Shown: piece by piece, positions 3 through 36,579 of the stretch
Numbering within the stretch: the first letter of the stretch is position 1
Layout of the letters: each line of letters begins with the position of its first letter
Source of the DNA: Bremerella volcania
Lineage (GTDB): Bacteria; Planctomycetota; Planctomycetia; Pirellulales; Pirellulaceae
Direction: 5' to 3'
Length of the DNA: 64,000 nucleotides
Assembly: GCF_007748115.1 (NCBI RefSeq)
Contig: NZ_CP036289.1
Coordinates: 992,001 to 1,056,000, forward strand
Notes under the pieces: model-generated
What the model saw: the letters and a program-made list of their open reading frames with translations, nothing else
Told to the model about the DNA's origin: nothing
Database searches by the model: none
Program-made: the position numbers and the translations under genes

Positions 3-3000
3 CTCGTATTTGCGAATGATGCTTCGTTCGATTTGCCTGCGATCGATATCCTGGGGGACTTGTTTGTTAGCGTTGGAGGTGATCTCAGCGATCAAAGCGG
101 CAAACAGATCGTGGTGGGGAATATCGCTTCATTCGCTGCCACGAATATCAATTTGACGAATCATCTGCCTGGGCATGACTTTGAAAAGTTGACGCTCAAC
201 GCTACCGCAAATGCCAGCGTTACTGAAACCGATGGCTTCACCTTTGCGGGCATCAGCAATATAACGGGTGACCTGGTCGTCACTTCCGGCGGAGCCATTG
301 TTGACCAGGCCGATACGGAATTGACGGTTGGTAATCTGGCCAACTTGACGGGCACCCAAATCGATCTGACGAACACGACGGCGGTAACGGGTCACGCGCT
401 GAACCTGGTGACCCTCGTTACCACTGGTACCGATCCGAACGACAATGCCTCGCTGTTGGAACTCGACGGATTTACCTTTGCGGGCGTGAATACGATCTTA
501 GGCAACTTGACGGTCACTTCGGGCGGTGAGATCCTCGATCAGACCGATACGGAACTGTCCGTTGGCGATCTGGTGAGCCTGACCGGCACGCAAATCGATC
601 TGACGAATACCACGGCGGTAACGGGTCACGCGCTGAACCTAGTGACGCTGGTCACCACCGGGACCAATCCGAACGACAATGCCTCGCTGCTGGAACTCGA
701 TGGCTTCACTTTCGCCGGTGTGAACACGATTCTCGGTAACCTGACCGTCACCTCCGGTGGTGAAATCTTGGATCAGGCTGACACGGAATTGTCCGTCGGT
801 GACCTGGCCAGCCTGACGGGCACGCAAATCGATCTGACCAATACCACCGCCGTGACGGGTCACGCACTGAACCTGGTGACCCTGGTCACGACTGGCACCG
901 ATCCGAACGATAACGCGTCGCTCTTGGAATTGGATGGATTTACCTTTGCGGGCGTGAATACGATCTTAGGCAGCTTGACGGTCACCTCGGGTGGCGAGAT
1001 CCTGGATCAAGCCGATACGGAACTTTCGGTCGGCGATCTGGCCAGCTTGACGGGCACCCAAATCGATCTGACAAATACCACGGCGGTAACGGGTCACGCG
1101 CTGAACCTGGTGACCTTGGTTACCACGGGTACCGACCCCAACGATAACGCGTCGCTCTTGGAACTCGATGGCTTCACCTTCGCTGGGGTGAACACGATTC
1201 TTGGTAATCTGACCGTGACCTCCGGGGGTGAGATCCTCGATCAGACCGATACGGAACTATCCGTTGGCGATTTGGCGAGCCTGACCGGTACGCAAATCGA
1301 TCTGGCCAATACCACGGCGGTAACGGGTCACGCGCTGAACCTGGTGACCTTGGTTACCACGGGTACCGACCCCAACGATAACGCGTCGCTCTTGGAACTG
1401 GACGGGTTTACCTTCGCTGGGGTGAGTACGATCCTGGGTAACCTGATCGTCACATCCGGGGGTGAGATCTCGGATCAAGCCGATACGGAACTTTCGATCG
1501 GTGATCTGGCCAACTTGACAGGCACCCAAATCGATCTGACGAACACCACGGCAGTGACGGGTCATTCGCTGAACCTGGTGACCTTGGTTACCACGGGTAC
1601 CGACCCCAACGATAACGCGTCGCTCTTGGAACTGGACGGGTTTACCTTCGCTGGGGTGAGTACGATCCTGGGTAACCTGATCGTCACATCCGGGGGTGAG
1701 ATCTCGGATCAAGCCGATACGGAACTTTCGGTCGGTGATCTGGCCAACTTGACAGGCACCCAAATCGATCTGACGAACACCACGGCAGTGACGGGTCATT
1801 CGCTGAACCTGGTGACGCTGGTAACGACTGGAACCGACCCGAACGACAATGCGTCGCTCTTGGAATTGGACGGCTTCACGTTCGCTGGGGTGAACACGAT
1901 CCTGGGTAACCTAACCGTCACCTCGGGCGGAGAGATCTCGGATCAAGCGGATACGGAACTTTCGGTCAGTGATCTGGCCAGTCTGACGGGTAGCCAAATC
2001 GATTTGGCCAATACCACGGCGGTATCGGGTCATGCGTTGAACCTGGTGACGTTGGTAACGACTGGAACCGATCCGAACGATAACGCGTCGCTTTTGGAGT
2101 TGGATGGCTTCACGTTCGCCGTAGTGAATACCATCCTGGGAAGTCTGACCGTCACCTCCGGGGGTGGGATCTTGGATCAGACCGATACCGAACTTTCGGT
2201 CGGTGACCTGGCGAGCCTGACCGGTACGCAAATCGATCTGACGAACACCACGGCCGTGACCGGTCACGCGTTGAACCTGGTGACCTTGGTTACCACTGGT
2301 ACCGACCCGAACGACAACGCTTCGCTTTTGGAGTTGGATGGCTTCACGTTCGCCGGAGTGAATACCATCCTGGGAAGTCTGACCGTCACCTCCGGGGGTG
2401 AGATCTTGGATCAGACTGATACGGAACTTTCGGTCGGTGATCTGGCAAGCCTGACCGGCACGCAAATCGATCTCGACAATACCACGGCGGTAACCGGTCA
2501 CGCGCTGAACCTGGTGACGCTGGTTACCACCGGTACCGACCCGAACGACAATGCCTCGCTGTTGGAACTCGACGGATTTACCTTTGCGGGCGTGAATACG
2601 ATTCTTGGTAATTTGACGGTGACCTCGGGTGGCGAGATCTCGGATCAGAACGACACGGAACTGTCCGTCGGTGATCTGGCGAGCCTGACCGGTACGCAAA
2701 TCGATCTGACCAATACCACGGCGGTAACGGGTCACGCGTTGAACCTGGTGACGCTGGTTACCACCGGTACCGACCCGAACGATAACGCGTCGCTCTTGGA
2801 ACTCGATGGCTTCACGTTCGCGGGCGTGAACACGATCTTAGGCAACTTGATGGTCACCTCGGGTGGCGAGATCCTGGATCAAGCCGATACGGAACTTTCG
2901 GTCGGCGATCTGGCGAGCCTGACGGGCACCCAAATTGATCTCGACAATACTACGGCGGTAACCGGTCACGCGTTGAATCTGGTCACGCTGGTTACCACGG

Positions 3001-6000
3001 GTACCGACCCCAACGACAACGCCTCGCTCTTGGAACTCGATGGGTTTACCTTCGCTGGGGTGAATACGATTCTTGGTAATTTGACGGTGACCTCGGGTGG
3101 CGAGATCTCGGATCAGAACGATACCGAACTATCCGTCGGTGACCTGGCGAGCCTGACCGGTACGCAAATCGATCTGACCAATACCACGGCCGTGACGGGT
3201 CACGCGTTGAATCTGGTAACCCTCGTTACCACTGGTACGGATCCGAACGACAATGCCTCGCTGCTGGAACTCGATGGCTTCACTTTCGCCGGTGTGAACA
3301 CGATTCTCGGTAACCTGACCGTCACCTCCGGTGGTGAAATCTTGGATCAGGCTGACACGGAATTGTCCGTCGGTGACCTGGCCAGCCTGACGGGCACGCA
3401 AATCGATCTGACGAATACAACGGCCGTGACCGGTCACGCGTTGAACCTGGTGACCCTGGTCACGACCGGGACCGATCCGAATGACAATGCCTCGCTGTTG
3501 GAGTTGGACGGCTTTACCTTCGCTGGTGTGAACACGATTCTCGGTAACCTGACCGTGACTTCCGGTGGTGAGATCTCGGATCAAGCAGATACGGAACTGA
3601 CCGTCAATGATCTGGCCAGCTTCACAGGCACCCAGATCGATCTGGATAACACGACGGCGGTGGTGGGTCATTCGTTAAACATGGTCAGCTTCGTCACGAC
3701 CGGTACGGACCCCAATGACAATGTGTCTTTGGCGGAATTGGACGGTTTTACCTTCGCCGGAGTGAATACATTCCTGGGTAGCTTAACCGTAACGTCCGGT
3801 GGTGCCATCGTTGATCAAGCGGATACGGAACTTTCGGTCGGCGATCTGGCCAGCTTGACGGGCACCCAGATCGATCTGACGAATACAACAGCCGTGACGG
3901 GGCACTCACTGAACCTGGTGACTCTCGTTACCACGGGTACCGACCCGAATGACAATGCGTCGCTGTTGGAGTTGGATGGCTTTACGTTCGCGGGCGTAAA
4001 CACGATTCTCGGTAATCTGACCGTCACCTCCGGTGGTGAGATCTTAGATCAGACCGATACGGAACTATCCGTAGGTGATTTGGCGAGCCTGATGGGCACC
4101 CAAATTGATCTCGACAATACCACGGCGGTAACCGGTCACGCGCTGAACCTAGTGACGCTGGTTACCACGGGTACCGACCCGAACGACAACGCTTCGCTGC
4201 TGGAACTCGATGGCTTCACCTTCGCTGGGGTGAACACGATTCTTGGTAATCTGACCGTGACCTCCGGGGGCGAGATTCTCGACCAGACCGATACGGAACT
4301 GTCCGTTGGTGATCTGGCGAGCCTGACCGGTACGCAAATCGATCTGACGAACACCACGGCAGTGACGGGGCACGCGCTGAACCTGGTGACGCTGGTTACC
4401 ACCGGTACCGACCCGAACGACCATGCTTCGCTGCTGGAACTCGATGGCTTCACGTTCGCGGGCGTAAACACGATTCTCGGTAACCTGACCGTGACTTCCG
4501 GTGGTGAGATCCTCGATCAGACCGACACGGAACTGTCCGTTGGCGATCTGGCGAGCCTGACGGGCACCCAAATTGATCTCGACAATACCACGGCGGTAAC
4601 CGGTCACGCGCTGAACCTAGTGACGCTGGTCACCACTGGTACCGATCCGAATGACAATGCCTCGCTCTTAGAACTGGACGGCTTTACGTTCGCTGGGGTG
4701 AACACGATCTTAGGCAACTTGATGGTCACCTCGGGTGGCGAGATCTTGGACCAGGCCGATACGGAACTTTCGGTCGGTGATCTGGCGAGCCTGACCGGTA
4801 CGCAAATCGATCTGACGAACACCACGGCCGTGACGGGTCACTCGCTGAACCTGGTGACGCTGGTTACCACAGGTACCGACCCGAACGATAACGCGTCGCT
4901 CTTGGAACTCGACGGATTTACGTTCGCGGGCGTGAACACGATCTTAGGCAACTTGATGGTCACCTCGGGTGGCGAGATCTTGGACCAGGCCGATACGGAA
5001 CTTTCGGTCGGTGATCTGGCGAGCCTGACCGGTACGCAAATCGATCTGACGAACACCACGGCAGTGACGGGGCACGCGCTGAACCTGGTGACGCTGGTTA
5101 CCACCGGTACCGATCCGAACGACAATGCCTCGCTGCTGGAACTCGACGGATTTACCTTTGCGGGCGTGAATACGATCTTAGGCAACTTGACGGTCACTTC
5201 GGGCGGTGAGATCCTCGATCAGACCGACACGGAACTGTCCGTTGGCGATCTGGCGAGCCTGACGGGCACCCAAATTGATCTCGACAATACCACGGCGGTA
5301 ACCGGTCACGCGCTGAACCTAGTGACGCTGGTCACCACCGGGACGGATCCGAACGACAACGCCTCGCTGTTGGAGTTGGATGGCTTCACTTTCGCTGGTG
5401 TGAACACGATTCTCGGTAATCTGACCGTCACCTCCGGTGGTGAGATCCTCGATCAGACCGACACGGAACTGTCCGTTGGCGATCTGGCGAGCCTGACCGG
5501 TACGCAAATTGATCTGACCAATACTACGGCGGTAACGGGTCACGCGCTGAACCTGGTGACCTTGGTTACCACTGGTACGGATCCGAATGACAATGCTTCG
5601 TTGCTAGAGTTGGACGGGTTCACGTTCGCTGGCGTGAACATGATTCTCGGTAACTTGACCGTGACTTCTGGGGGCGAGATCCTCGATCAGGCCGACACGG
5701 AACTGTCCGTCGGTGACCTGGCGAGCCTGACCGGTACGCAAATCGATCTGACCAATACCACGGCCGTGACGGGTCACGCGTTGAATCTGGTAACCCTCGT
5801 TACCACTGGTACGGATCCGAACGACAATGCCTCGCTCTTAGAACTGGACGGGTTTACGTTCGCTGGCGTAAACACGATTCTCGGTAATCTGACCGTGACC
5901 TCCGGGGGAGCCATTGTTGATCAGACTAATACTAAGCTGACGGTCAACGATCTGACTGATCTTAAGGGTACGGCGATTGACTTGGCCAATACGACGGCGG

Positions 6001-9000
6001 TTACCGGTCATTCTTTGAATCAGGTTACCTTTGTCACGACCGCTGGTGATGCCGAACTTAAGGAACTCGACGGTTTCGAGTTTGTGGGGGCAAATGACAT
6101 TCAGGGCGGTCTGACGGTAACCACAGGCGGTGGTATTACGCAGCCTAACGGCACGCTCACCGTGACCGGAATAACGAACCTGACCGTTGGTGAAGGCGAA
6201 TTGGTCACGCTCGATAAGATGAACGACTTCCAAGGCACGGTCAGCATCAAAGGTGCAACCAATCGTGCTGGCGATGTGACGCTTGTCGACATCAACGCCA
6301 TCGAGTTTGGGGATGTCGTCAGCAACAAGCTCAAGATCACCGCCGGTGGGAACATCACGCAAGACACCGGAACTCATTTGGATATTCTGACGCAGACCAT
6401 TCTTGGCTTGTCGAGCAAAGCAACCATTGAACTGCTGAATGTCGGGAACGATCTGTCCACGGATGTCCAGCTTGACACCGCTGGCAACATCGATCGAGTC
6501 TGGGACTTCGAGATTCGAAACGAAAATGCCGGCGGCATCGTAGTACCAGGTGGTGATTTCGAAAATGTGGTCAAGGGGGGAATGGTCGACGACCTGACAC
6601 TCGAATTCGTCAATGCCCCGACCCTGACACTTCCTGAAATCAAGATTACGGATGATCTACGCATTGTTATCGCTGGCCTTCTAACTCAAAGCGGTGACAT
6701 CGAAGCTGGCGATACGGCACAGTTTGATGCCGGTACCATTACCCTGGCTAATGCGAATAGCCTGACGGTCGCCAATAACGCCAGCTTCACCGTCGATACT
6801 GGGGATCTCAACGTTGGTGTTACTCCGACGACGGCAGCGGATAAGGATCGAGGGACCGTCGCACCAGCAACCGTTAATCTCGGTACGCTGACATTCTCGG
6901 CCGATGGTCATAACGTGACGATCTCCGAGAACAGTGCCATGAACCTGGCAGGTGACAATGTCGCCCAAACGGTGTACTTGCGGTCCGAGAATGCCAGCAT
7001 TGAAACCAATGCCGATGCAACGCTTGATGTTAACGACTTGGCCGCATTCAGGGCGTTCACTGATATCAGTCTCGGGAACGCGACGAATTCGGAAGTCGAT
7101 CTGCGAATCCTGCTTGTCGATGCAGGCGGAAGCGTTTCGATCATCGAAAACTCTGATTTCAGCAGCATGACCGACACAGAGACGGCTCTCGCTGTGATGA
7201 ATGGCACCACGGTCACGGGAACCCTGGCCATTCAAACAGGCGGTCATATCATCCAGGTTAACGATATTCGCACTGCAGGGCCTGGTGATCGCATTCAAGC
7301 CGGCTTCGCTCTCTTCGATTCCGAAGGCAGCATTCTGTTGACCGATCTTGAGGTCGGTCGAATTGCCGCCTCGGCAGGTGGAACACCACTGTTTGTCACG
7401 CAGGGAGTTGGGCTTGACTTTGACGCGGCTGGAATCAACAAGGGCAATGGATTTGGTGGCGACTTGGCAACGGCGGTGATCGATTCGTCTTTGCCAACCG
7501 AGAATGCGGATACGTTTGCTGATAACGCTCGTGCCGATGCATTTCTCTTTCAAGATGTCGATGGCAATATGATCGACGATGGCGAGGCCTACTCGATCAT
7601 CATTTCTGATATCGACGGATTGGTCATTGGAAGTGTTGCCGATGCGATCGCCGGTGGCAAAGTGCCGCTGATTGACGGTCTCCGCACAAACGGAGCGGAA
7701 GCCGGCCATGTCTTTGTGCGAGCCGAGGGAGGCAACTTGACCTTCGGAACGGGCGCGGGGCTTGTCGTCGGTTTGGCAAACTCTGGGGTTATCACGGCGC
7801 TGGCCAGTGGTGATCTGACGATCACGCCTGGAAGCTGGTTGCATGTTACCGATGGTGCGGATCCGGTTGCTTCCGCATTTGCCGTCGTCACCACGATTGA
7901 AGGCTTCGTGGATAACCCGACGAACAAGTTCGAGTTGCCTAACTCGACCACGGTTGCCATGCCGAACGAAGGTCCGGCATATTCGCGCATACCGGGTAAC
8001 GTCGATACCTATGTCCTCGGTACGCAGACGGGTAAGGACTCGACGGCAACGATCGTGTTGAACAAGCTTGGTACGCTAGGCGCCCCAGATGAAATGGACT
8101 TCGAGGTGGTTCTGAACTTTAACGATACGACCCCACCTCAGTTGGAACCGTATCCCGTCGCATTCAATTCGGACACGGTCATCCTGCATGATATTCCGTG
8201 GGAATTTGCGACGACGAATGCTTCGACCGTTGTTACCCTCCAGGCTTACAACAGCCCAAATATCAACCTCTATGCGGATGTCGCCGCCGACGAATCGAGT
8301 TTCAATAATCTGAACGTGGTGATCGATCAGTTTGAGATCTTCTTCCTCACGCCGATCGACTACGTGCCAGAGATGAGCAACTTCGCTGCCCCGAACAATC
8401 CGTACCTCACGCCGATTATTGTTCCTGAGCCTGAGGTGGCACCGTATGCGGCTCTGACCGAAATTGCCGACGATACGCGTGTGGCGACTCAGATCGATGG
8501 TGTGACGGTCGTCGAAGTGGACCCAAGCGACTTCATGGAAATCGGCGAGGAAATCGAACTCGACGATGACTTCATGACGCTGGATGCCGTCAAGGAGTTC
8601 ATCCAGAATGGCGATCAGTTCCCACCGGGGCTCTACAAGATCGAAATCCTCTACCCAGGCGCGGAAGTGCCGGAAGAGCACTTCTACTGGAAGCAGGATC
8701 GTCCTGATCCGTTCGACTTGTTCAGTCGCAGTTCCAAGCCGGTTGCCCCACAGGCAGCTGAACTGGCCGCGGCTGATCAGGCAAAAGCTCAGCTTTCGGC
8801 CGAAGAGGTTTGGGCTCGAGAGTACGAAAAGTGGTTTCCGACCGCCGCTGATATGCAGCCAGCCGACGACCTTTTAGTGCCTTCCGCTGAAGGTGAGTCG
8901 GGCGATATGATCCCGAGTGAGGACGATATTCTCCTTGAACGCGTCACAACGGTAAGTTTGCAAGAAATCGACCGGATGACCGATCGATTGCGAGCCAAAC

Positions 9001-9194
9001 GATCCATCGTCCGCGACAGCCTGAATGGGGCGATGATTGGTGGCGCGGCTCTGATGGCTGCGGTTGCCGCCCAGGGACGTCGAGATGATGAGGCACCTAA
9101 TCATCATCCGGACGAACAAAGGGAGCAGCCTGAGGATTCTTTGGACGAGACTTCTCTCGGTCGACTACGCCGCCGCGTTCGTCAATGGCTATGA
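3..9194 (+). CDS. Giant beta-strand-repeat surface protein (5' truncated by window edge)
   Basis: The reading frame is open to the left edge of the window, so the true N-terminus is missing; at least 3,060 residues are present. From about base 246 to 6090 it consists of 25 copies of a 78-residue unit with the core TSGGEILDQADTELSVGDL and the signature TGTQIDL-TNTTAVTGH. The spacing is exactly 234 bp. After the array come more divergent beta-rich stretches (about 6100-8300), an acidic/proline-containing region (8400-8950), one short hydrophobic segment near SLNGAMIGGAALMAAVAA (about 9020-9070) and a basic tail ending RRRVRQWL. Repeats of this kind resemble filamentous haemagglutinin-like beta-helical or 'beta strand repeat' adhesins, which are common as giant proteins in planctomycetes; that assignment is by pattern only. 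It is probably exported and surface-associated. No catalytic domain is visible. An 11-bp hairpin follows the stop codon. Confidence 0.85.
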   Translation, partial: LVFANDASFDLPAIDILGDLFVSVGGDLSDQSGKQIVVGNIASFAATNINLTNHLPGHDFEKLTLNATANASVTETDGFTFAGISNITGDLVVTSGGAIVDQADTELTVGNLANLTGTQIDLTNTTAVTGHALNLVTLVTTGTDPNDNASLLELDGFTFAGVNTILGNLTVTSGGEILDQTDTELSVGDLVSLTGTQIDLTNTTAVTGHALNLVTLVTTGTNPNDNASLLELDGFTFAGVNTILGNLTVTSGGEILDQADTELSVGDLASLTGTQIDLTNTTAVTGHALNLVTLVTTGTDPNDNASLLELDGFTFAGVNTILGSLTVTSGGEILDQADTELSVGDLASLTGTQIDLTNTTAVTGHALNLVTLVTTGTDPNDNASLLELDGFTFAGVNTILGNLTVTSGGEILDQTDTELSVGDLASLTGTQIDLANTTAVTGHALNLVTLVTTGTDPNDNASLLELDGFTFAGVSTILGNLIVTSGGEISDQADTELSIGDLANLTGTQIDLTNTTAVTGHSLNLVTLVTTGTDPNDNASLLELDGFTFAGVSTILGNLIVTSGGEISDQADTELSVGDLANLTGTQIDLTNTTAVTGHSLNLVTLVTTGTDPNDNASLLELDGFTFAGVNTILGNLTVTSGGEISDQADTELSVSDLASLTGSQIDLANTTAVSGHALNLVTLVTTGTDPNDNASLLELDGFTFAVVNTILGSLTVTSGGGILDQTDTELSVGDLASLTGTQIDLTNTTAVTGHALNLVTLVTTGTDPNDNASLLELDGFTFAGVNTILGSLTVTSGGEILDQTDTELSVGDLASLTGTQIDLDNTTAVTGHALNLVTLVTTGTDPNDNASLLELDGFTFAGVNTILGNLTVTSGGEISDQNDTELSVGDLASLTGTQIDLTNTTAVTGHALNLVTLVTTGTDPNDNASLLELDGFTFAGVNTILGNLMVTSGGEILDQADTELSVGDLASLTGTQIDLDNTTAVTGHALNLVTLVTTGTDPNDNASLLELDGFTFAGVNTILGNLTVTSGGEISDQNDTELSVGDLASLTGTQIDLTNTTAVTGHALNLVTLVTTGTDPNDNASLLELDGFTFAGVNTILGNLTVTSGGEILDQADTELSVGDLASLTGTQIDLTNTTAVTGHALNLVTLVTTGTDPNDNASLLELDGFTFAGVNTILGNLTVTSGGEISDQADTELTVNDLASFTGTQIDLDNTTAVVGHSLNMVSFVTTGTDPNDNVSLAELDGFTFAGVNTFLGSLTVTSGGAIVDQADTELSVGDLASLTGTQIDLTNTTAVTGHSLNLVTLVTTGTDPNDNASLLELDGFTFAGVNTILGNLTVTSGGEILDQTDTELSVGDLASLMGTQIDLDNTTAVTGHALNLVTLVTTGTDPNDNASLLELDGFTFAGVNTILGNLTVTSGGEILDQTDTELSVGDLASLTGTQIDLTNTTAVTGHALNLVTLVTTGTDPNDHASLLELDGFTFAGVNTILGNLTVTSGGEILDQTDTELSVGDLASLTGTQIDLDNTTAVTGHALNLVTLVTTGTDPNDNASLLELDGFTFAGVNTILGNLMVTSGGEILDQADTELSVGDLASLTGTQIDLTNTTAVTGHSLNLVTLVTTGTDPNDNASLLELDGFTFAGVNTILGNLMVTSGGEILDQADTELSVGDLASLTGTQIDLTNTTAVTGHALNLVTLVTTGTDPNDNASLLELDGFTFAGVNTILGNLTVTSGGEILDQTDTELSVGDLASLTGTQIDLDNTTAVTGHALNLVTLVTTGTDPNDNASLLELDGFTFAGVNTILGNLTVTSGGEILDQTDTELSVGDLASLTGTQIDLTNTTAVTGHALNLVTLVTTGTDPNDNASLLELDGFTFAGVNMILGNLTVTSGGEILDQADTELSVGDLASLTGTQIDLTNTTAVTGHALNLVTLVTTGTDPNDNASLLELDGFTFAGVNTILGNLTVTSGGAIVDQTNTKLTVNDLTDLKGTAIDLANTTAVTGHSLNQVTFVTTAGDAELKELDGFEFVGANDIQGGLTVTTGGGITQPNGTLTVTGITNLTVGEGELVTLDKMNDFQGTVSIKGATNRAGDVTLVDINAIEFGDVVSNKLKITAGGNITQDTGTHLDILTQTILGLSSKATIELLNVGNDLSTDVQLDTAGNIDRVWDFEIRNENAGGIVVPGGDFENVVKGGMVDDLTLEFVNAPTLTLPEIKITDDLRIVIAGLLTQSGDIEAGDTAQFDAGTITLANANSLTVANNASFTVDTGDLNVGVTPTTAADKDRGTVAPATVNLGTLTFSADGHNVTISENSAMNLAGDNVAQTVYLRSENASIETNADATLDVNDLAAFRAFTDISLGNATNSEVDLRILLVDAGGSVSIIENSDFSSMTDTETALAVMNGTTVTGTLAIQTGGHIIQVNDIRTAGPGDRIQAGFALFDSEGSILLTDLEVGRIAASAGGTPLFVTQGVGLDFDAAGINKGNGFGGDLATAVIDSSLPTENADTFADNARADAFLFQDVDGNMIDDGEAYSIIISDIDGLVIGSVADAIAGGKVPLIDGLRTNGAEAGHVFVRAEGGNLTFGTGAGLVVGLANSGVITALASGDLTITPGSWLHVTDGADPVASAFAVVTTIEGFVDNPTNKFELPNSTTVAMPNEGPAYSRIPGNVDTYVLGTQTGKDSTATIVLNKLGTLGAPDEMDFEVVLNFNDTTPPQLEPYPVAFNSDTVILHDIPWEFATTNASTVVTLQAYNSPNINLYADVAADESSFNNLNVVIDQFEIFFLTPIDYVPEMSNFAAPNNPYLTPIIVPEPEVAPYAALTEIADDTRVATQIDGVTVVEVDPSDFMEIGEEIELDDDFMTLDAVKEFIQNGDQFPPGLYKIEILYPGAEVPEEHFYWKQDRPDPFDLFSRSSKPVAPQAAELAAADQAKAQLSAEEVWAREYEKWFPTAADMQPADDLLVPSAEGESGDMIPSEDDILLERVTTVSLQEIDRMTDRLRAKRSIVRDSLNGAMIGGAALMAAVAAQGRRDDEAPNHHPDEQREQPEDSLDETSLGRLRRRVRQWL
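246..6090 (+). repeat. Tandem array of 25 x 234 bp (78 aa) units inside the giant protein
   Basis: The codon of the Ile in TQIDL starts at 360 and recurs every 234 bases without exception until 5976 (24 intervals), so 25 units can be counted. Units differ mostly by synonymous changes and a few residue swaps such as ILDQ/ISDQ and LTN/LDN. The last unit is slightly shortened (AGDAELKEL replaces GTDPNDNASLLEL). Bases 1333-1582 and 1567-1816 are identical except for one base, which marks a very recent unit duplication or gene conversion. The same periodicity creates long antisense open frames that are not genes. Confidence 0.95.
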
Positions 9195-9394: not shown

Positions 9395-12300
9395 ATGTCG
9401 ACTTTCAAGTGCCCAAGTTGTCAGGCTGAACTACCAGATTTTCAGCAAGCGGCGGGATTCTGTCCCTATTGCGATGCGAAATGGGAAGACGCGTCTGCCG
9501 AGGATAGCACGTCTGAAAATTCGACGACGCTCAATATCGATAAGGAAGGTATTGGCGATCATCCCCATGAAGACACGGAATCTGCTCCCGAACCATCCGG
9601 CGGACAAACGATTCAGCTAGAAAGAGAGAATGACGGTCCATCGACTGGCATCAATCAAACCATCGATTTGCCCGGAGCCGCCGATGTCGGTCAAGAATTC
9701 ATGGGCAGCGATCAGGAGGAAGGGGGGCAAACGATCCAGCTCAGTGGTGAAGACACCTCTGCGACGATTGTGCCTGACAAGGTTCCAAGCGGCGAAGATC
9801 CCAATCAGACGGTCAATCTCGAACAGGACGACGCATCTGACATTCATTCCAATCAAACGATCGATCTGCCCGCTGGCGGCAGTGTCGATTCGATGCAGAC
9901 GATCGATCTTCCTGAAGGGGGAAGTGCCGACTCGATGCAGACTCTCGATTTGGATGCATCGAAAGGGGACGTCAATCGAACCGCCCAGACGATGGCGTTT
10001 CAGCTAAATGACGACAATCAGCAGACGATCGACATCGGCGATAGTCAGCATGGCCAGGAAGACTTACACGTCACATTTGGCTCGAAGCCTCTTTCCCCGA
10101 GCGACGTCAAGCGTTTCTGGGGATCCGGCGAAGGCTCGCCTATGCAGACGATGCGAACGGCGACCGTTTGCAAAGCGAAAGAACTGGGGGTCGACTTGCG
10201 GCGACGGGTTCTTTCCGATCAGGAAGAAGGCTCCGACTACGCGATTATCAATCAAATCGGCAAAGGGGGGATGGGGGTCGTCTACGCGGCCAAGCAGAAG
10301 TCGCTGCGTCGCCGAGTTGCCGTCAAAACGCTGAAGCGCGATATCGGACAGCGTGACGACGATCGCGCCAAGTTCCTAAGTGAAGCCGTTATTACCGGCG
10401 TGCTCGACCATCCAAATATCGTGCCGATTCACGAACTTGGTCAAACCGAGGACGGCACGCTCTTCTATTCCATGAAATGCGTGACGGGTACCGAGTGGCA
10501 CAAGGTCGTCCGTAATAAGACAGAAGCGGAGAACCTCGAAATCTTTTTGAAAGTGGCCGATGCCGTTGCGTTCGCCCACTCCAAAAACGTCATCCACCGT
10601 GACTTGAAACCGGAAAACGTCATGCTGGGCGAGTACGGTGAAGTGCTTGTGATGGACTGGGGTTTGGCAGTCGATTTGAATCGCAAAGAAGAATTCACCA
10701 TGGGGGGCACACCGGCATACATGTCGCCGGAAATGGCCAAGGGCCCGTTGGAGCGAATTGGCAAGTGCAGCGACATCTATCTGTTGGGGGCGATGCTGTA
10801 TGAAATCGTGACGGGCTTTCCGCCGCACGCGGCATCGACGATCACCGAGTGCTTGGTCGCCGCCGCACAGAACGTCATTGTTCGCTCAGATTCGACCAGT
10901 CGATTGAAAAACATCGCGTTAAAAGCGATGGCAACCTCGCCCAAACTGCGTTTCAACTCCGTTGCGCTACTGCAAGAAGAAGTCCGCAAGTATCAAGCGA
11001 CGGCCCAAAGTATCGAACTTACCAATACGGCTCAGAGGGAACTTGAAACGGCGAAGGAAACCGATAACTACGAACTCTTTTCGCGAGCGATGTTCGGGTT
11101 TGAGGACGCCCTCAAGCTGTGGGGCGAAAACGACGCTGCCGATCGTGGTATTCATGAAGCCCGTCAGGAATACGCCAAGTGTGCTCTTAAGAAGGCCGAC
11201 TACGACCTGGGGCTGCAACTGGTCAGTCCGACCGATCCAGACGAAGCTCCCATTTACCAAGACCTGATCACTGCCAAGGCGGACGCGGAACGTACGGCCC
11301 GCAACGCGAAGGTTGCCCGCTATGTGGCCGTCGGTTCGTTGATGTTTGCATTGGTCGGTGCCGGGGTTGGTCTGTTTATCATCAATGGCTTGTATCAAAA
11401 GGCCGAAGAAGCCGCGCAGATTGCCATCGCGGCGGAAAAGGAAGCTACCGAGCAGCGCGATGAAGCTCAGAAAGCACGCGACAAGGCAGAGGGTCTGGCG
11501 AAGGCCCTGGAGACCGAAAGAGACACGCTGAAAGTAACCAACAAGAAGCTCGATGACGCGTTGGCGGATATTACCAATGCGAACGAAGAGCTCGCGATGA
11601 ACGCCAAGACCATCGAAGGACAAAATGCCAAGCTGCAAAAGCAAACCAAAGACCTGCAAACGGCCCTGGTAACCGTCGAACAGGAACGCAATCGTGCTAC
11701 GTTCGCAGGTATGTTTGCTTCCGTGGGGCTCGCACAGTCCAAAGTTGAGGCCAACGATATCTCGGCGGCCTTGAATCTCTTGGAAGACGTTCCGGTTAAA
11801 TACCGCGGCTGGGAATGGAAACACCTGGCCTATCTTTGCCACCCGGACGTTCCTCGCATTGCGTTTAAGGAGGCAGCGACTTCGGTGGCCATTTCTCCCG
11901 ATGGCCAATGGACTGCCATTGGAACCGATGGCGGAGGCGTGGACGTCTATCCGACGCAAAATGCGGTCGCCCCAGGCGTCATGGCCCAACATGTGGATGT
12001 GCCTGACAGCCGTATTACGGCACTACAGTTTTCCAACGATGGCAAGCAGTTGTGGATTGGCACCGATCATTCTCAGAAGTACCTGCAAATCTGGGATCTT
12101 AAAGGCAAACCAGCGGTGGTGCCCTTGAGTGGACTCAATCCGTATTCCACATTCCCGATAGTCAGTGCGATCGAGTTTGTGCCGGACAATAGCGGAGTCG
12201 TATTTGTTGCCGTCAGCGGACGCTGCTACAGGCTCAACGCGAACGACCTCAAGGGACGCGCGGTGATCAACGTTGATAGCGTGTTCGATCTGGCAATTTC

Positions 12301-14860
12301 GCCCGACGGTAAAGAGTATGTCCACACGCAAGAGTCTCGTGGTGAATACAATGTTTCGCGATTGCCGACGGACGGAACGTACAAAGAAATCGCGAGAATG
12401 CAACTTGAGGATCGAGCTACACATTGCGTTTACCTGACCAACGATCTGACAGCATTGGCCTTGGCCGACGGTAGCATCAAGCTGTGGGGAGGACCGAGCA
12501 AGCTGAACGAAATCGTGTACACGCTCCCTTCGCAGGCCAATCAGCTGCATTTCGATCGACGAAAGAACCTGATGTCGGTCGCCTTGGCGGACGGCTCGGT
12601 GAAGCTGCTGCGTTTCGATCCAGCATCCAATGCGTTGTCCGACTACAAAACGCTGCGTGGACATCAGGGTTCCGTTCTCGATTGTGCCGTGCACCTCAGC
12701 CAGCCGACCCTTGTTTCGGTTTCCGAGGACAACACTTCCCGGTTCTGGAATTACGAAACGTACCAGGACCGGTTAGAGTTGGATCTCGACGATAGCGTCC
12801 TGTGGGTTAATTTTTCCGAGAACGGAAACCAATTCATCACCGGCGATCGAGGCGGTCGGGCTTGGATCTGGAACAGCAATACCAGCAGTGAGAAGCCACT
12901 TCAGGAATTTGTGGTTGGAGATTGGACCAAGCAGAACGTAGCGCAGAAGTCGGCCACGATTCCCCTAGGAGACGGTAAGCACGTCGTCACGGCGGATGCG
13001 GACGTTGGTGTTGCCGTTTGGGATATTAAGTCGAAGCAGATTGTCTGGAAACAACCAACGTTTGCAAAATCGTACCAGGTTGCCGCGGTCCCTAAGACAG
13101 ACCGGTTTCTCTTTGTCGACATCGTCAAGGATGGCCAAGGTGCTGAAAAGACCATGATCCGTGCCGCGAATTCCCAGGGAGAATCGGTCTTTAATGTTCA
13201 TAGCCTGGTGGAAGCGAAACAAATTCTCGACTTGGTAGTCGCACCCAGCGGAAATTACTTTGCGATGCGAAGCCCCAATGGTATTCGTGTCTACCCCATG
13301 CCAACTGGCAGCGATACCAAGCTGGCCGCCGAAATCTGGAATTCCGATTCCGACCCGGTACTACAAATGGAGTTTCGATCGGATGACACCATCTTGTTGG
13401 GTTACCATCCAGGGCAAGGAACCGGTCGCGTTTCGATTGTCGATTTCAAGAATCGAAAAGATCTCCATGAATTCCCGACCTCCGAAAACAATCTGCGTTA
13501 CCTGCACTTCGGCTTGTCGCCTGACGAGTCTCATGTCGCGATCGCCTACACGAACTACACGGGTTCACAATCGGCCGATATCAAAAATACGGTATCCCAA
13601 ATCAGCTTGTATGCGCTGGATAACCCCCAGAAACCAGTCAGCACTGTCCAGTGTAAAGGGGTTGCCGCCTATCCTGCCGTTTCCAACGACAACAAGGTAG
13701 TTTACTTCGTGCAGCAGCACCGACCAGGCGACCGTGACATCGCACGCTGGGAGGTTTCCAAGCCTGAAAGCGAAATCCTGGCGTACTCGCGAAAGGGAAC
13801 CGATGCAACCGGCACGTCGTCGCGGGAAGTGGGGCAGGTCGAAGTGATTCCGGGATCTGCTGACGAGGTCTTGGTGGCGTTCAGCAATCGTGATATCGAA
13901 GTGTGGAATACTTCTACCGGGAAGAGCCTTGCTCGATTGGCACCGTCGCGCGCCGTGATCTACTGCGACTTTTATAACAACGACCAGCAAGTGTTAACGG
14001 TTCATGTCGATGGTCTCGTGCGCATTTGGGACACAAAAACTGGCAACGTAGTTGATCAATACGAGGCCCAGTACCAAACGCTTGAGGCTGCGGCTCGAAT
14101 AGGTGATCTACTGGCGGTTGGTGGAAGTGCAGGCGAGGTGGTCGTATTTGATCTAGCCAAGAAGGCCGCCGTGCAGGCGTTGCCTTACCAAGGCTCGTCA
14201 ATCGATGCCTTGGCATGGGTATCCACGCAGCAGAATCCGGCGTTGATGGTCGCCACCAGTCGCATGAAGCCCGACGCGGACGCCGGCGAGCGTCTCGCAG
14301 GTTCATTGAATCTGATCGACGGAGGAACCTGGCAGCCGATCGGAGAAGCGTTTGCTGAGCATGCAGGACGTTATCGAAGTCTCGCCGCATCGAAAAGTGG
14401 CGCCCGTTTCGCGGCGACCAGTAGTGATACAGGCGTTCGTCTCTGGGCGGATATTCCGCTAGCAGAGTTGGCTACGACAGAGCCGCGTCGGCTTGAGGGG
14501 CATTCAACGGAAGTCACGAGTGCCGCATTCTCTGCAAACGGCGAGCGATTGGTCACAGGCAGCTTCGATGGATCGTTGACGGTTTGGTTTGTGGATCGTC
14601 CTGCGGCCAGTGCCGATATGGCTGGTGAAGAAGCGCCAAAGGGCGAATTACATGTCCAACAATTCGTGCCTTTGAAGGGACATCGAAAAGAAATCTCGTC
14701 GATCGTATTCTCTCCCAACAGTGAATTGCTGTTGACTTCGTCGTTGGATCGAAGCGCCATACTTTGGTTTACCACCAATCTGCCTGACAATCTGGCGGGT
14801 AACGTAGCTCCGGAGAAGGACGCGGTTGCCTCGGCAGAGGTGCCAGCCGCGCAGCGATAG
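9395..14860 (+). CDS. Ser/Thr protein kinase with zinc ribbon, QTIDL motif array, TM segment and WD40 repeats
   Basis: 1,821 residues. Domains in order: an N-terminal zinc ribbon (CPSC at 6-9, CPYC at 23-26); an acidic low-complexity linker (about 40-225) with eight QT[IVL]x[LI] motifs (Thr 72, 89, 113, 139, 155, 169, 183, 211); a protein kinase domain (about 282-545) with glycine loop GKGGMG 289-294, VAVK Lys311, HRDLKPEN 401-408 and DWG in place of DFG at 421-423, then SPE 444-446; a membrane segment at about 643-665; a coiled coil (about 666-770, rich in E/K/A); and WD40-type propellers to the end (clear GH...LVTGSFDGSLTVW repeats near the C-terminus). The catalytic residues are intact, so it should be an active membrane kinase with a cytoplasmic kinase domain. 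DWG is frequent in planctomycete kinases. A GGGGGA tract lies 11-16 bases before the ATG. Its position directly before an FHA gene and T6SS genes suggests it signals to them. Confidence 0.93.
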   Translation: MSTFKCPSCQAELPDFQQAAGFCPYCDAKWEDASAEDSTSENSTTLNIDKEGIGDHPHEDTESAPEPSGGQTIQLERENDGPSTGINQTIDLPGAADVGQEFMGSDQEEGGQTIQLSGEDTSATIVPDKVPSGEDPNQTVNLEQDDASDIHSNQTIDLPAGGSVDSMQTIDLPEGGSADSMQTLDLDASKGDVNRTAQTMAFQLNDDNQQTIDIGDSQHGQEDLHVTFGSKPLSPSDVKRFWGSGEGSPMQTMRTATVCKAKELGVDLRRRVLSDQEEGSDYAIINQIGKGGMGVVYAAKQKSLRRRVAVKTLKRDIGQRDDDRAKFLSEAVITGVLDHPNIVPIHELGQTEDGTLFYSMKCVTGTEWHKVVRNKTEAENLEIFLKVADAVAFAHSKNVIHRDLKPENVMLGEYGEVLVMDWGLAVDLNRKEEFTMGGTPAYMSPEMAKGPLERIGKCSDIYLLGAMLYEIVTGFPPHAASTITECLVAAAQNVIVRSDSTSRLKNIALKAMATSPKLRFNSVALLQEEVRKYQATAQSIELTNTAQRELETAKETDNYELFSRAMFGFEDALKLWGENDAADRGIHEARQEYAKCALKKADYDLGLQLVSPTDPDEAPIYQDLITAKADAERTARNAKVARYVAVGSLMFALVGAGVGLFIINGLYQKAEEAAQIAIAAEKEATEQRDEAQKARDKAEGLAKALETERDTLKVTNKKLDDALADITNANEELAMNAKTIEGQNAKLQKQTKDLQTALVTVEQERNRATFAGMFASVGLAQSKVEANDISAALNLLEDVPVKYRGWEWKHLAYLCHPDVPRIAFKEAATSVAISPDGQWTAIGTDGGGVDVYPTQNAVAPGVMAQHVDVPDSRITALQFSNDGKQLWIGTDHSQKYLQIWDLKGKPAVVPLSGLNPYSTFPIVSAIEFVPDNSGVVFVAVSGRCYRLNANDLKGRAVINVDSVFDLAISPDGKEYVHTQESRGEYNVSRLPTDGTYKEIARMQLEDRATHCVYLTNDLTALALADGSIKLWGGPSKLNEIVYTLPSQANQLHFDRRKNLMSVALADGSVKLLRFDPASNALSDYKTLRGHQGSVLDCAVHLSQPTLVSVSEDNTSRFWNYETYQDRLELDLDDSVLWVNFSENGNQFITGDRGGRAWIWNSNTSSEKPLQEFVVGDWTKQNVAQKSATIPLGDGKHVVTADADVGVAVWDIKSKQIVWKQPTFAKSYQVAAVPKTDRFLFVDIVKDGQGAEKTMIRAANSQGESVFNVHSLVEAKQILDLVVAPSGNYFAMRSPNGIRVYPMPTGSDTKLAAEIWNSDSDPVLQMEFRSDDTILLGYHPGQGTGRVSIVDFKNRKDLHEFPTSENNLRYLHFGLSPDESHVAIAYTNYTGSQSADIKNTVSQISLYALDNPQKPVSTVQCKGVAAYPAVSNDNKVVYFVQQHRPGDRDIARWEVSKPESEILAYSRKGTDATGTSSREVGQVEVIPGSADEVLVAFSNRDIEVWNTSTGKSLARLAPSRAVIYCDFYNNDQQVLTVHVDGLVRIWDTKTGNVVDQYEAQYQTLEAAARIGDLLAVGGSAGEVVVFDLAKKAAVQALPYQGSSIDALAWVSTQQNPALMVATSRMKPDADAGERLAGSLNLIDGGTWQPIGEAFAEHAGRYRSLAASKSGARFAATSSDTGVRLWADIPLAELATTEPRRLEGHSTEVTSAAFSANGERLVTGSFDGSLTVWFVDRPAASADMAGEEAPKGELHVQQFVPLKGHRKEISSIVFSPNSELLLTSSLDRSAILWFTTNLPDNLAGNVAPEKDAVASAEVPAAQR

Positions 14861-15031: not shown

Positions 15032-16276
15032 ATGGAGATTTCGCTCTTGCGTTTCGCGCTTCAAATTTACTCGATGAATTCTGGCAGTCGTCGTGTCTGG
15101 CTCGATCCGGGTCAAACGATTCGCATTGGTCGTACTACGCGCTCCGACCTGACCGTCCCAGATGATCCACATTTGTCCGGCATCCATTTTTCAATCGCCC
15201 GCGAGTCGGATTCGGTTGTTCTAAAGGACCTTCAGAGCCGCAACGGGACTTTTGTGAACGGGGCCAAAGTGGGCAGCGCTTTGGAACTGCACGATGGCGA
15301 CGTCATCGTCGCTGGCAAGACTCAGTTCCAGGTCGTCGCCGTAAACGATTTGCCAGGCACCAATGTTGGCAACATTCCTCCGGTATCGCCTGGCGCTTCG
15401 CACCCAGGCGTGAACGCCGCGCAGTTCGATTACGATCAGACCGAATCGATCTCGCCAGAGAACAACCCATTTTTCCAGGCTGCCAGCAAGTCGCACGATT
15501 CAAGGACTCTACAAAACTACCCGCGATTGAGCAGTCAATCGTTCAAGGACGTGCGGAGAAACGCCGGCCTTGGTAGTGACTATCCTGGTCGACGTTCGGT
15601 ACAACTTCCCGGTGCAAGTTCCAGTAGCGATGCACAGCAGCCAATACCTTCGCAGCCTAGTGGAAGTGTTTCCAGCAACCAGCCATTACCCCAGAGATCG
15701 TTGTCGGCGGCGGAGTTATCTCGTGGGCTGCAAATGCGGTATGAAACGCGGATGGCGCCTTCGGGCATGACCTACTTCTGCCCTCGCAACGAAGTGAAGC
15801 CACCGACCGACGTCGCTGACTTTATCGGTCAAAATCGTTTTCTTTACGCGGTGGTCAACTTCGGTCGTCTTCAGCCACAGCAGCAACCTGGTTTTTATAA
15901 CGAAGCCATCGCCGCTGGAGCCGTGCAGATTTCGAGTACCCAACTTCTCATTCCCAAACGCGACGCCGCCGCCTTCCATGGGATCTTGCGGCATACGTGG
16001 GGGCAGGACGCCATGATCTGCATGGCGAGTCGTCTGAATAAGTTGGAGTTCATGAGCTTGGCCTATCGCTTGACCAATGAATTGGCGAGTCCGGCTCAAT
16101 TGCTGAACCATCTCTATTCCGATGGTCAGTACACCAACTATGGTTTCCTCGAGGGAATCTCGGCGGTGTTGCTCGAGATCGAGCGAGGTGCCCGGTGGGT
16201 GATCTTTAAGAATGATTCCGAGATCCGAACCTGGCGAACGCTTGGCTTGCCTTGTCCGCCGGAACTAGTTGGATAG
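15032..16276 (+). CDS. FHA-domain protein with C-terminal domain shared with the 34193 protein
   Basis: 414 residues. The N-terminal FHA domain (about 5-102) has the expected landmarks: IGR at 32-34, S49 and H52, and the NGTFVNG loop at 71-77. FHA domains bind phosphothreonine peptides. A low-complexity linker rich in S/P/Q follows (about 105-235). The C-terminal domain (about 250-414) carries WGQDAMICM and ends with a W-x-I-F-K...LG pattern; the same landmarks recur in the other FHA protein of this window, and the layout is loosely reminiscent of DUF4123 VgrG adaptors (low certainty). An ATG at 15074 is an alternative start, but the first FHA strand (LRFALQIY) needs the upstream one. It follows the kinase by 171 bp on the same strand and converges on the PAAR gene. 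Likely a phospho-dependent T6SS regulator or adaptor (inference). Confidence 0.85.
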   Translation: MEISLLRFALQIYSMNSGSRRVWLDPGQTIRIGRTTRSDLTVPDDPHLSGIHFSIARESDSVVLKDLQSRNGTFVNGAKVGSALELHDGDVIVAGKTQFQVVAVNDLPGTNVGNIPPVSPGASHPGVNAAQFDYDQTESISPENNPFFQAASKSHDSRTLQNYPRLSSQSFKDVRRNAGLGSDYPGRRSVQLPGASSSSDAQQPIPSQPSGSVSSNQPLPQRSLSAAELSRGLQMRYETRMAPSGMTYFCPRNEVKPPTDVADFIGQNRFLYAVVNFGRLQPQQQPGFYNEAIAAGAVQISSTQLLIPKRDAAAFHGILRHTWGQDAMICMASRLNKLEFMSLAYRLTNELASPAQLLNHLYSDGQYTNYGFLEGISAVLLEIERGARWVIFKNDSEIRTWRTLGLPCPPELVG

Positions 16277-34192: not shown

Positions 34193-36529
34193 ATGTTGGT
34201 TGTCCTTGAGGTGGTTGTCGGCTCGGAGGTCGGACGCCAAATCAAAATTCCGCAAGATCGAACGTGCAAGGTTGGACGCACGAATTACTCGGATGAGGCC
34301 TTCACCGACGACGTGATGATGTCGGGCCAACACTTTGAGATTCGCAACGACGGAAAGTATTGCTGGCTGCGTGATCTGGAAAGCCGCAATGGAACGCGTG
34401 TTGACGATGACTTCGTCAAAGAGAGTCTCGTCATCCGGGACGGCCAGAAGGTCTTTGCCGGGCGGACCGAGTTCCTGGTCAAGATCGACGGGGGAGCCAA
34501 GAGTCCGTACGAGTCGACCAGCGTAGGCACGTTCGAGCCGGTCCGAAATCGCTCGCTCATGTCGACGACGTTTGGCAGCCAGGTCTACGCCGAGGATGAT
34601 CCGCGTTTTCCCAAGTCCGAGAAAAATCCTCAGGGCAATCCACAGCCGTTACCTCCAGGGGCACCTGCCGGTCCGCCGATGCCGCCAGTGATGCCCACGC
34701 CACCTCCGTCCGGCGTGCCTCAGCATCCGTCAGGCGGCAACATGGAGCTTCCGCCGACTCCCGAAACCCCCAAGTTTCCTCGAGTGGAAAACTTCAGCCC
34801 ACCCGAATTCGCCAAGCCCGATACCGGCACGGCTCCGGGGCATCCGCCGGGATTCCCACCAGCAGGCAGCCCGCCACCGCCGGGACCAGCTTCGCAGGGT
34901 ACCTCCAAGAGTCCTCCCTGGGCGCACCCCGCTCCCACGCCGGTAACACCTGGTCAGCCCATGCCGGGGCAAGTCATCCCGGGTCAGTTACCGTCTGGTT
35001 CGCCACCGCCAAGCCATCAAGAGTTTACGCCACCTCATAAACGAGGTGGAGACGAAGGGCCGATCTTCAAGTTCGCCAAAGGAAGCGGTGGTCCCGCTTC
35101 TGCAGGGCCACCTCCGGGTATGCCGCCCAGCTTTCGGCACACGCCAGGTACGCCTCCTGGTAGCCCGCCGGCTGGCGATCCGAGATTTCAAACGCCACCT
35201 CACGCGGAACCTCCTGCGGTCTCTGGTGCCCCGCCCAGCTTTGAAACTCCTGGGCAGCCACCTCAAGAGAAGCCGACCAATTTCGCCGCACCACCGGAAA
35301 GACCCCTGCCACCTGGAACACCGCCAGGGCCTCCAGGCACGCCGCCGGGTGGCTTTCCAAACTTCGACGAGCCGGCGGCTCCTCCGCAGTTTTCCAGTTT
35401 CGCATCGCCTCCCTTACCGCATGGGACTGAGCCGCCCGAGCATAAGGGGCCTCCTGGTACTCCGCATGTGGCTCCTTGGGAAGCTCAGGGAGGTGGTAAG
35501 AATCCCAATCTCGACTTCGGGTCGGATGATTTCGGTCCCAACGTCGGGCCAGCGCTTGATTTCGGGGACGAAGCCGACGATGAAGATGAGCCGCTGTTTG
35601 GTCCCCCTTCGTTTGCCGGGGGAAGTGGTCCGTCGTTTACCAATCAAATGGGCCCTGCCGGTGGGAACCCTAATCTAGTCGACTTTTCGTTCGACCAACC
35701 CCCGGGTAACAAGGTCACTGGGCCGCCATCCGAGGACGAACCGCTTCCTCCGACGGGCATCCCCCAGAATGTGATTGAGCCTGCTCCGCCGACTCCGTCA
35801 TCAAACTGGCGGAATCCCGATTACGTCTCTGCGGCTCCCCCGCCATCGCAAATCGATGAAGGGGAACAGAACGCGGCGGCTGCATCCCCTGATTCGGTCC
35901 GAGGGTTGTGCTTCCAAGAGGAGACGGCCGACTCTGGCTATCCCGTTTATCACAGCATCATCGAAGGGGTTCCCAAGGTTCCCTTTTCTCCCTTCGCTTT
36001 GATTCATGAGTTGTCGAAGGTGGCCAAGCCGGTGCTGTCGATTCACTTCATGAGAGCCGAAATGCAAATCCCGGAGAACCTGGAGGGGACACCCCTGCGT
36101 GGCGACCTGGATGCGAAGTTCGCGGCGCTGGGCGGACCGATGCTTTACTGTCCGCAAGATCTCGAGCCGTTTCGCGAGATCATCAACGAGCTATGGGGAC
36201 TGGACGCGATTAGCTGCATGTTTACCTCGGGAGATCCCCAAGGCGTTGTCGATCACTTTCGGCAAGGGTTGTTTGCTCCCAAACGGGGTGACCTGCCCAC
36301 CCCAGGACCAGGCCCGCAATTTTTCGCCGTCTTTTCGCCTAATCTGTTGACCACGTTCCTATCGCAGCGCGATCAAGAGACGGTTGACGAACTGTTGGGT
36401 ACTGAGGTCGTCGGGGTGTTGGCCGAAGTGGCCGACATGCCCGAAAGCTGGCAGTTGTTCACCAAAAAATCGTGGGCCGAATCACTCAAGAAGCTGGGCA
36501 TGAATCGCGTTGTCGAGCAGCCGCAATAG
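34193..36529 (+). CDS. FHA-domain protein with long proline-rich linker and shared C-terminal domain
   Basis: 778 residues. The FHA domain (about 1-98) keeps VGR (27-29), S44, H47 and RNGTRV (65-70). Next comes a very long, flexible Pro/Gly-rich segment (about 135-600) with repeated PPG/PPGTPPG and GAPPSFETPG-like motifs. The C-terminal domain (about 610-778) has LWGLDAISCM, then SPNLLTTFL and W-x-L-F-x-K...LG, matching the C-terminal domain of the FHA protein at 15032. The FFAVFSPNLLTTFL stretch is also reminiscent of DUF4123 T6SS adaptors (tentative). The gene ends 50 bases before the fused sheath gene and is surely cotranscribed with it. No Shine-Dalgarno is seen. Expected role: phosphothreonine-dependent assembly control of the sheath or spike (inference). 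Confidence 0.85.
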   Translation: MLVVLEVVVGSEVGRQIKIPQDRTCKVGRTNYSDEAFTDDVMMSGQHFEIRNDGKYCWLRDLESRNGTRVDDDFVKESLVIRDGQKVFAGRTEFLVKIDGGAKSPYESTSVGTFEPVRNRSLMSTTFGSQVYAEDDPRFPKSEKNPQGNPQPLPPGAPAGPPMPPVMPTPPPSGVPQHPSGGNMELPPTPETPKFPRVENFSPPEFAKPDTGTAPGHPPGFPPAGSPPPPGPASQGTSKSPPWAHPAPTPVTPGQPMPGQVIPGQLPSGSPPPSHQEFTPPHKRGGDEGPIFKFAKGSGGPASAGPPPGMPPSFRHTPGTPPGSPPAGDPRFQTPPHAEPPAVSGAPPSFETPGQPPQEKPTNFAAPPERPLPPGTPPGPPGTPPGGFPNFDEPAAPPQFSSFASPPLPHGTEPPEHKGPPGTPHVAPWEAQGGGKNPNLDFGSDDFGPNVGPALDFGDEADDEDEPLFGPPSFAGGSGPSFTNQMGPAGGNPNLVDFSFDQPPGNKVTGPPSEDEPLPPTGIPQNVIEPAPPTPSSNWRNPDYVSAAPPPSQIDEGEQNAAAASPDSVRGLCFQEETADSGYPVYHSIIEGVPKVPFSPFALIHELSKVAKPVLSIHFMRAEMQIPENLEGTPLRGDLDAKFAALGGPMLYCPQDLEPFREIINELWGLDAISCMFTSGDPQGVVDHFRQGLFAPKRGDLPTPGPGPQFFAVFSPNLLTTFLSQRDQETVDELLGTEVVGVLAEVADMPESWQLFTKKSWAESLKKLGMNRVVEQPQ

Positions 36530-36579
36530 TTCAGCACCACGTTACAACCTCAAGCAAGGCAATGTCGGGGGGAGACATC

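Follow-up and report, generated by a model that had tools for sequence, protein, structure and literature searches.

A conserved threonine array in the linker of a planctomycete membrane kinase, a candidate docking platform for the adjacent FHA protein

The kinase gene and its linker

We analyzed a window of 64,000 nucleotides spanning positions 992001-1056000 of the 6.5-Mb single-contig genome of Bremerella volcania. It encodes a membrane Ser/Thr kinase of 1821 aa (9395..14860, + strand) composed of a zinc ribbon, a linker carrying an array of threonine motifs, a kinase domain, a predicted transmembrane helix (11327..11383, +; hydropathy peak at residue 645) and WD40 propellers. The zinc ribbon (residues 6-26; 9410..9472, +) contains two CxxC motifs whose cysteines are invariant in 11 aligned sequences. 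The kinase domain (residues 282-507; 10238..10915, +) matches Pkinase with an E-value of 7.5e-40, and its catalytic residues K311, D403, N408 and D421 are intact and invariant in the same 11 sequences. Directly 5' of the kinase gene is a gene for a 3053-residue protein (33-9194, +) with a tandem array at bases 306-5905 (a 234-bp unit encoding 78 residues, 23.9 copies, 84% matches).

Two FHA proteins are encoded in the window, as the original prediction had noted: FHA1 (15032..16276, +), whose gene lies directly 3' of the kinase gene, and FHA2 (34193..36529, +), which adjoins a sheath (TssB/C-like) gene further along.

Between the zinc ribbon and the kinase domain runs the linker (about residues 31-228), which holds eight QT[IVL]x[LI] sites. 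In order along the + strand these are QTIQL at T72 (9605..9619), QTIDL at T89 (9656..9670), QTIQL at T113 (9728..9742), QTVNL at T139 (9806..9820), QTIDL at T155 (9854..9868), QTIDL at T169 (9896..9910), QTLDL at T183 (9938..9952) and QTIDI at T211 (10022..10036). The original prediction had listed these same eight threonines, had given their spacing correctly as irregular (14-28 residues) and had assigned Leu or Ile to T+3 in all of them, as the site sequences confirm; it overlooked a ninth, imperfect site, QTMAF at T199 (9986..10000, +). A 42-bp tandem repeat of 2.2 copies (9857..9949, +) covers T155-T183 and is the likely source of an extra site.

An array of eight such sites is far from chance. 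In 100,000 composition shuffles of residues 32-240 the motif occurred 0.026 times on average and never more than twice. At the DNA level, a QT[h]D[L/F] pattern that covers four of the eight array sites had 38 matches genome-wide (13 for a backward-pattern control). Four of these fall within 300 bp inside the kinase gene, the other 34 lie at least 12,997 bp from one another, and the pattern forms no other cluster in the genome. A compact QT array was likewise not found in any of the 16 other kinase ORFs of this genome that were recognized by regular expression in 27 loci. The idea that the array is a general property of the kinases of this genome is not supported by these 16 ORFs or by the DNA pattern, which clusters here alone.

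The linker had also been described as acidic and disordered. Its acidity is plain from composition, with 44 D/E and 8 K/R in 209 residues. As for disorder, no secondary structure was predicted for residues 31-234 (pLDDT 22-33) in a model that is poor throughout (mean 37.5), a result that suggests, in the sense of being consistent with, a disordered segment.

Conservation of the threonine sites

Orthologues of the kinase in eight congeners are nearly full length and 57-86% identical to it. We aligned these nine congeners, the present species included, with the orthologues from two further genera (G028 and G026). Over residues 29-228 of the 11 sequences, which represent three genera, the invariant columns are limited to T72, T89, L92, P93, T155, P159, T183 and T211, a picture that is somewhat flattering because repeated motifs help the aligner and inflate apparent conservation. 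The threonine of T113 is present in nine of nine congeners, T139 is gapped in one sequence (L012), and T199 is gapped in two (L011 and L012). T169 is absent from the eight congeners and lies inside the 42-bp repeat, and it likely stems from a tandem duplication specific, among the nine, to this species.

In the linker alignment of the nine congeners, mean pairwise identity was 0.82 at the motif threonines (T169 included, although one species only has it) and 0.38 over 156 filler columns. Among the nine congeners, the nine motif columns hold threonine in all 70 ungapped cells and serine in none. Four Thr codons are in use at these columns, with synonymous variation at seven of the nine. The nine non-motif Thr columns of the linker behave in a mixed way: six vary, and three (T121, T124 and T227) are invariant or nearly so in the nine congeners. 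These last three sit in DTSATI and VTFG, outside the QT motif.

Outside the genus, only two to five sites per kinase keep the strict QT[IVL]x[LI] form (L013, L014 and L187-L189). The relaxed form T[IVLM][DEQN][LIF] occurs eight or nine times in these same five kinases and five to nine times within the genus. Because the strict form drops in other genera and the relaxed form stays, we read the core from these alignments as a threonine followed by a hydrophobic residue, an acid or amide, and Leu or Ile. The essential core is, on this reading, T-[IVLM]-[DEQN]-[LI], and Gln at -1 is not required, so that its inclusion in the motif by the original prediction does not hold. Its wider claim, that the motif is conserved and the filler is not, stands in the eight congeners and two further genera; the orthologue alignment that it proposed showed the expected pattern of a motif that varies in number and yet persists.

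FHA1, FHA2 and the type VI secretion genes

FHA1 consists of an FHA domain (15119..15310, +), a linker and a C-terminal alpha/beta domain. In 11 aligned homologues R34, S49, H52, N71 and G72 of the FHA domain are invariant; from knowledge of the family we take these residues to be the pThr pocket. In structural comparison 3po8, an FHA domain that is phosphothreonine-dependent, ranked first (TM-score 0.87, normalized by target length). The 50 PDB matches listed, aligned over 93-139 columns, have titles that name FHA proteins or complexes containing them. FHA1 has a threonine site of its own in a low-confidence linker, T137-E-x-[IL] (15440..15451, +): T137 and E138 are present, with I or L at +3 from T137, in 14 of 14 homologues.

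No Pfam match was obtained for the C-terminal domain of FHA1, and we used this part to search for homologues. There were 12 strong homologues and one weak one in 396 genomes of the order, and 14 strong and one weak in 241 genomes of the family, own genome counted in each search. All 14 of the strong homologues are encoded directly 3' of an array-bearing kinase, and these 14 kinases, defined by strong FHA1 matches, are referred to here as FHA1-linked. At the 13 loci other than our own we found no case of the gene order kept with the motifs gone, the arrangement that the original prediction had named as evidence against it. The weak matches, in G329 (E 9.8e-6) and G431 (E 3.1e-6), were left out of the 14; neither 15 kb of G329 (L190) nor the 2.4-kb G431 locus (L186) contained a recognizable kinase.

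A contig scan with the FHA1 alignment returned one close homologue (L091) among the best 80 of 453 matches. A further FHA gene, on a Thermoguttaceae contig (L092, 3221-4618), is 27% identical to FHA1 over residues 5-383. By eye its start and end are FHA2-like rather than FHA1-like. It is followed by an open frame of 1796 residues, and no kinase was recognized in 13.5 kb of this locus.

FHA2 is not a constant partner of the array. Its C-terminal part has a homologue in nine of the 14 FHA1 genomes, namely eight of nine congeners (63-93% identity in the seven others) and G028 (34%). None was found in G004 or in four g19 genomes, all of which keep the array. On gene content, then, FHA2 appears to go with the secretion genes and FHA1 with the array.

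Within the stretches read, the genes 3' of FHA1 include those for VgrG, Hcp and the long protein P1767 in eight of nine congeners (window counted) and in G028. PAAR is also found 3' of FHA1 in those loci, with no match found in L038 and L039. P1767 (20036-25339, - strand) lies near Hcp in the same eight congeners and G028 and has a weak VWA match; its FYFSCHG segment presumably recalls the His-Gly motifs of caspase/CHAT proteins. Immediately 3' of FHA2, one ORF (36472-38028, +) has TssB-like and TssC-like sheath matches, each below the NCBIfam cut-offs. TssK and a second sheath-type match are at G000:C1:958478-974646, about 17-34 kb before the window begins, so the set of T6SS genes is divided across a larger stretch than the window. 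The sheath-like gene of one congener (G006:C266:56996-58426) contains one in-frame TAG stop.

Searches of the whole G004 genome (96% complete) gave no VgrG, sheath protein or TssK, and a kinase with six T[IVLM][DEQN][LIF] sites still adjoins FHA1 there. The VgrG matches of the four g19 genomes are >1 Mb from the kinase-FHA1 pair or on another contig. Because these five genomes keep the pair without nearby T6SS markers, the pair is, by gene order, separable from the secretion system, and a T6SS-specific reading of its function is weakened.

A docking model, its alternatives and known systems

A tree of 47 kinases placed the FHA1-linked kinases in one clade (support 100/98). Arrays of T-[h]-[DEQN] are more widely distributed: among 19 related kinases that lack FHA1, shuffles show them to be enriched at p<0.01 in 12. 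Other linkers in this family carry threonine arrays of different form, such as mostly QT[IV]D[SAG] in L018, 26 T[h][DEQN] sites in L023 and ETVD[LFV] in L033. The linked kinases stand apart at the +3 residue of T[h][DEQN]: across the 14 of them, 99 of 115 such sites have Leu or Ile there, against 22 of 129 in the 19 unlinked relatives. The shuffle p-values and Fisher tests applied to such counts take no account of shared descent and serve as description only. A hydrophobic +3 also occurs in unlinked kinases with no detected FHA neighbor (10 of 10 sites in L033, 7 of 9 in L025). Since the linked kinases form one clade, the +3 shift and the acquisition of FHA1 count as one evolutionary event and not as independent replicates, and no second independent origin of an FHA-linked array was found among the kinases compared.

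We also looked for FHA genes in 24 stretches around unlinked kinases (about 15-20 kb each, mostly on one side). None was found in 22 of them. The two exceptions are L212 and L218, and the linker of the L212 kinase contains just two T[h][DE] sites. Because related kinases have arrays and no FHA gene in the stretches examined, an array alone does not imply an FHA neighbor.

Within the linked kinases the preference for threonine is pronounced. Although serine is the more abundant residue in the 14 proteins (358 Ser, 270 Thr), there are 57 occurrences of QT[h][DE] and none of QS[h][DE], 91 of T[h][DE] and 9 of S[h][DE], and 80 of T[h][DE][LI] and 3 of S[h][DE][LI]. In the unlinked kinases the preference is weaker (39 QT[h][DE], 2 QS[h][DE]). 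These counts, with the alignments, support the inference that the sites are under selection as threonine, mostly with Leu or Ile at +3. It is plausible from the same comparison that T-[h]-[DE] is the preference of the kinase itself and that the +3 Leu/Ile was added for FHA1 as its reader. FHA domains are reported to bind pThr and to discriminate against pSer (available part of PMC3146460), and the +3 position often matters for their specificity, yet this +3 rule is debated (available part of PMC4037201).

Our preferred reading, to which we give a probability of roughly 0.6, is that the linker, autophosphorylated at several threonines, docks FHA1 much as the linker of MST2 docks SLMAP. The kinase would phosphorylate threonines in the core T-[IVLM]-[DEQN]-[LI] on itself or on a neighboring copy, and FHA1 would then dock through its FHA domain on each phosphothreonine, the +3 Leu/Ile providing a further contact. 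With several interchangeable sites along a flexible arm, the membrane-anchored kinase could in this way recruit FHA1 multivalently. Phosphorylation of FHA1 itself, probable at T137 (TEx[IL]), could allow it to chain or self-associate. The pair probably regulates the T6SS genes, among which it sits in most congeners; control of the T6SS need not be its sole job, because the pair persists in the absence of detectable T6SS genes. Docking is favored by the invariant Thr columns, the 70 of 70 Thr cells, the intact pThr pocket and the presence of FHA1 beside the kinase in all 14 genomes. Against it stand the single clade of linked kinases, the unlinked relatives that have arrays and no FHA gene (22 of 24 loci), and the Thr-over-Ser preference, which is seen in unlinked kinases too and could reflect a Thr-preferring kinase alone.

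In one alternative the autophosphorylated threonines would regulate the kinase in cis, through charge or pseudosubstrate feedback, with no FHA reader and with T-[h]-[DE] as the substrate preference of the family. The enrichment of T-[h]-[DEQN] in 12 of 19 unlinked relatives and the rarity of FHA genes around such kinases indicate that the core belongs to the wider family, and the phosphorylated multi-Thr juxtamembrane domain of StkP works in a genus that lacks FHA domains (available part of PMC12077195). We nonetheless consider cis-regulation unlikely as the full account, as it leaves unexplained both the +3 Leu/Ile of the FHA1 clade and the unbroken adjacency of FHA1. Another possibility is that the sites are unphosphorylated short linear motifs, read as an extended T-I-D-L strand by some other partner, for instance an adaptor or a component of the T6SS. 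The alternation of hydrophobic residues fits this, as does the conservation of residues past the threonine (L92, P93 and P159). However, a phosphothreonine reader is the better match for strict threonine (no serine in 70 cells) next to an FHA gene, and G004 keeps the array although no VgrG, sheath or TssK was detected there; we regard a linear motif of this kind as quite improbable.

The original prediction had the array recruit several FHA clients, and in its fullest form this would make the linker an assembly platform on which FHA1, FHA2 and others dock for the whole gene block. Two FHA genes do lie inside the block, the genome has 17 FHA domain matches, and the FHA2 C-terminal homologue accompanies the array in eight of nine congeners and G028. 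FHA1 adjoins the array in all 14 genomes, however, and the FHA2 homologue was not found in five of them (G004 and the four g19 genomes), for which reason we slightly lowered the already small odds of this platform; we now think it very unlikely, and the claim of several clients is unsupported. Least credible is the suggestion that the array is a by-product of short-unit DNA tandem duplication with no function at the level of the sites. The 42-bp repeat over T155-T183 and its species-specific T169 copy invite it, but the other sites are common to most or all of the nine congeners and partly to three genera, across filler with a mean identity of 0.38, and their Thr codons vary synonymously at seven of nine columns. 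Conservation and codon variation lead us to reject a tandem-repeat artefact for every site except T169, and as a general explanation it is largely refuted.

Returning to docking of FHA1 by the linker, the genomic setting most closely resembles the PpkA-Fha pathway of the T6SS, which likewise combines a Ser/Thr kinase and an FHA protein in a T6SS context (PMC3953482, PMC6082577, PMC12607579). According to the available portions of these papers, Fha binds pThr (T14 of TssL in Agrobacterium) or is itself phosphorylated; the known pThr sites are thus on TssL or Fha, and those portions make no mention of a Thr array in PpkA. FHA1 scores 37 bits against the NCBIfam TagH model (cut-off 120.25), too low for assignment to the TagH/Fha family. 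With the PP2C model PF13672, no phosphatase of the PppA type was found near the pair, the sole match in its own genome being ~93 kb away. Because FHA1 falls below the TagH cut-off and no nearby PP2C_2 phosphatase was found, we do not file the pair under PpkA-Fha, from which it differs further in surviving in G004 without detected T6SS markers.

Two other bacterial systems share parts of the arrangement. Pneumococcal StkP is a kinase with several phosphorylated threonines in a disordered segment that recruit partners, but streptococci are without FHA domains, and the available text mentions no conserved repeated motif of the present kind (PMC12077195). In the mycobacterial pair PknQ-MupFHA, the kinase gene lies near an FHA gene and FHA-kinase binding depends on phosphorylation; docking, however, is on activation-loop residues and not on a linker array (available part of PMC4238996). 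As far as these sources go, docking in bacterial kinase-FHA pairs has been described at one or a few defined sites, such as TssL T14 or the PknQ activation loop. We found no paper on such an array by title in the open-licence literature, and the words zinc, linker and disordered are absent from PMC11032199, on planctomycete kinases.

The closest working analogue of the kinase linker is, by our comparison, that of the human Hippo kinase MST2, in which the available part of PMC5663475 describes seven autophosphorylated TM sites, with binding of the SLMAP FHA domain at the three sites tested. The likeness lies in several Thr sites in a flexible kinase linker and an FHA domain in a separate protein; it is one of arrangement, and homology is not claimed. 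At our locus the Thr array lies in a kinase linker for which the poor model suggests disorder, the FHA pocket residues are invariant, and the two genes adjoin in 14 of 14 genomes. In that source, moreover, the TM motifs are bound redundantly, and phosphorylation and binding are proven there, whereas here we infer them. The systems differ in that the MST2 sites are TM and those here T[IVL][DE][LI], the MST2 linker lies between kinase and SARAH domain and ours between zinc ribbon and kinase domain, and SLMAP brings a phosphatase.

With some doubt, we put forward the possibility that the pair is a bacterial, independently evolved multivalent scaffold, in which many interchangeable pThr sites on the kinase arm face an FHA reader with its own TEx[IL] site, phosphorylation would trigger assembly at the membrane, and T-[h]-[DE] would serve the kinase, the +3 Leu/Ile having been added once for the reader when FHA1 joined the clade. 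The array offers directly testable peptides, and the wider kinase family, with its differing +3 residues, provides a ready-made comparison for telling what the kinase prefers from what the reader prefers. If the docking model is true, bacteria would have, in a conserved kinase array and one co-inherited FHA gene, a counterpart of the MST2-SLMAP arrangement of the Hippo pathway.
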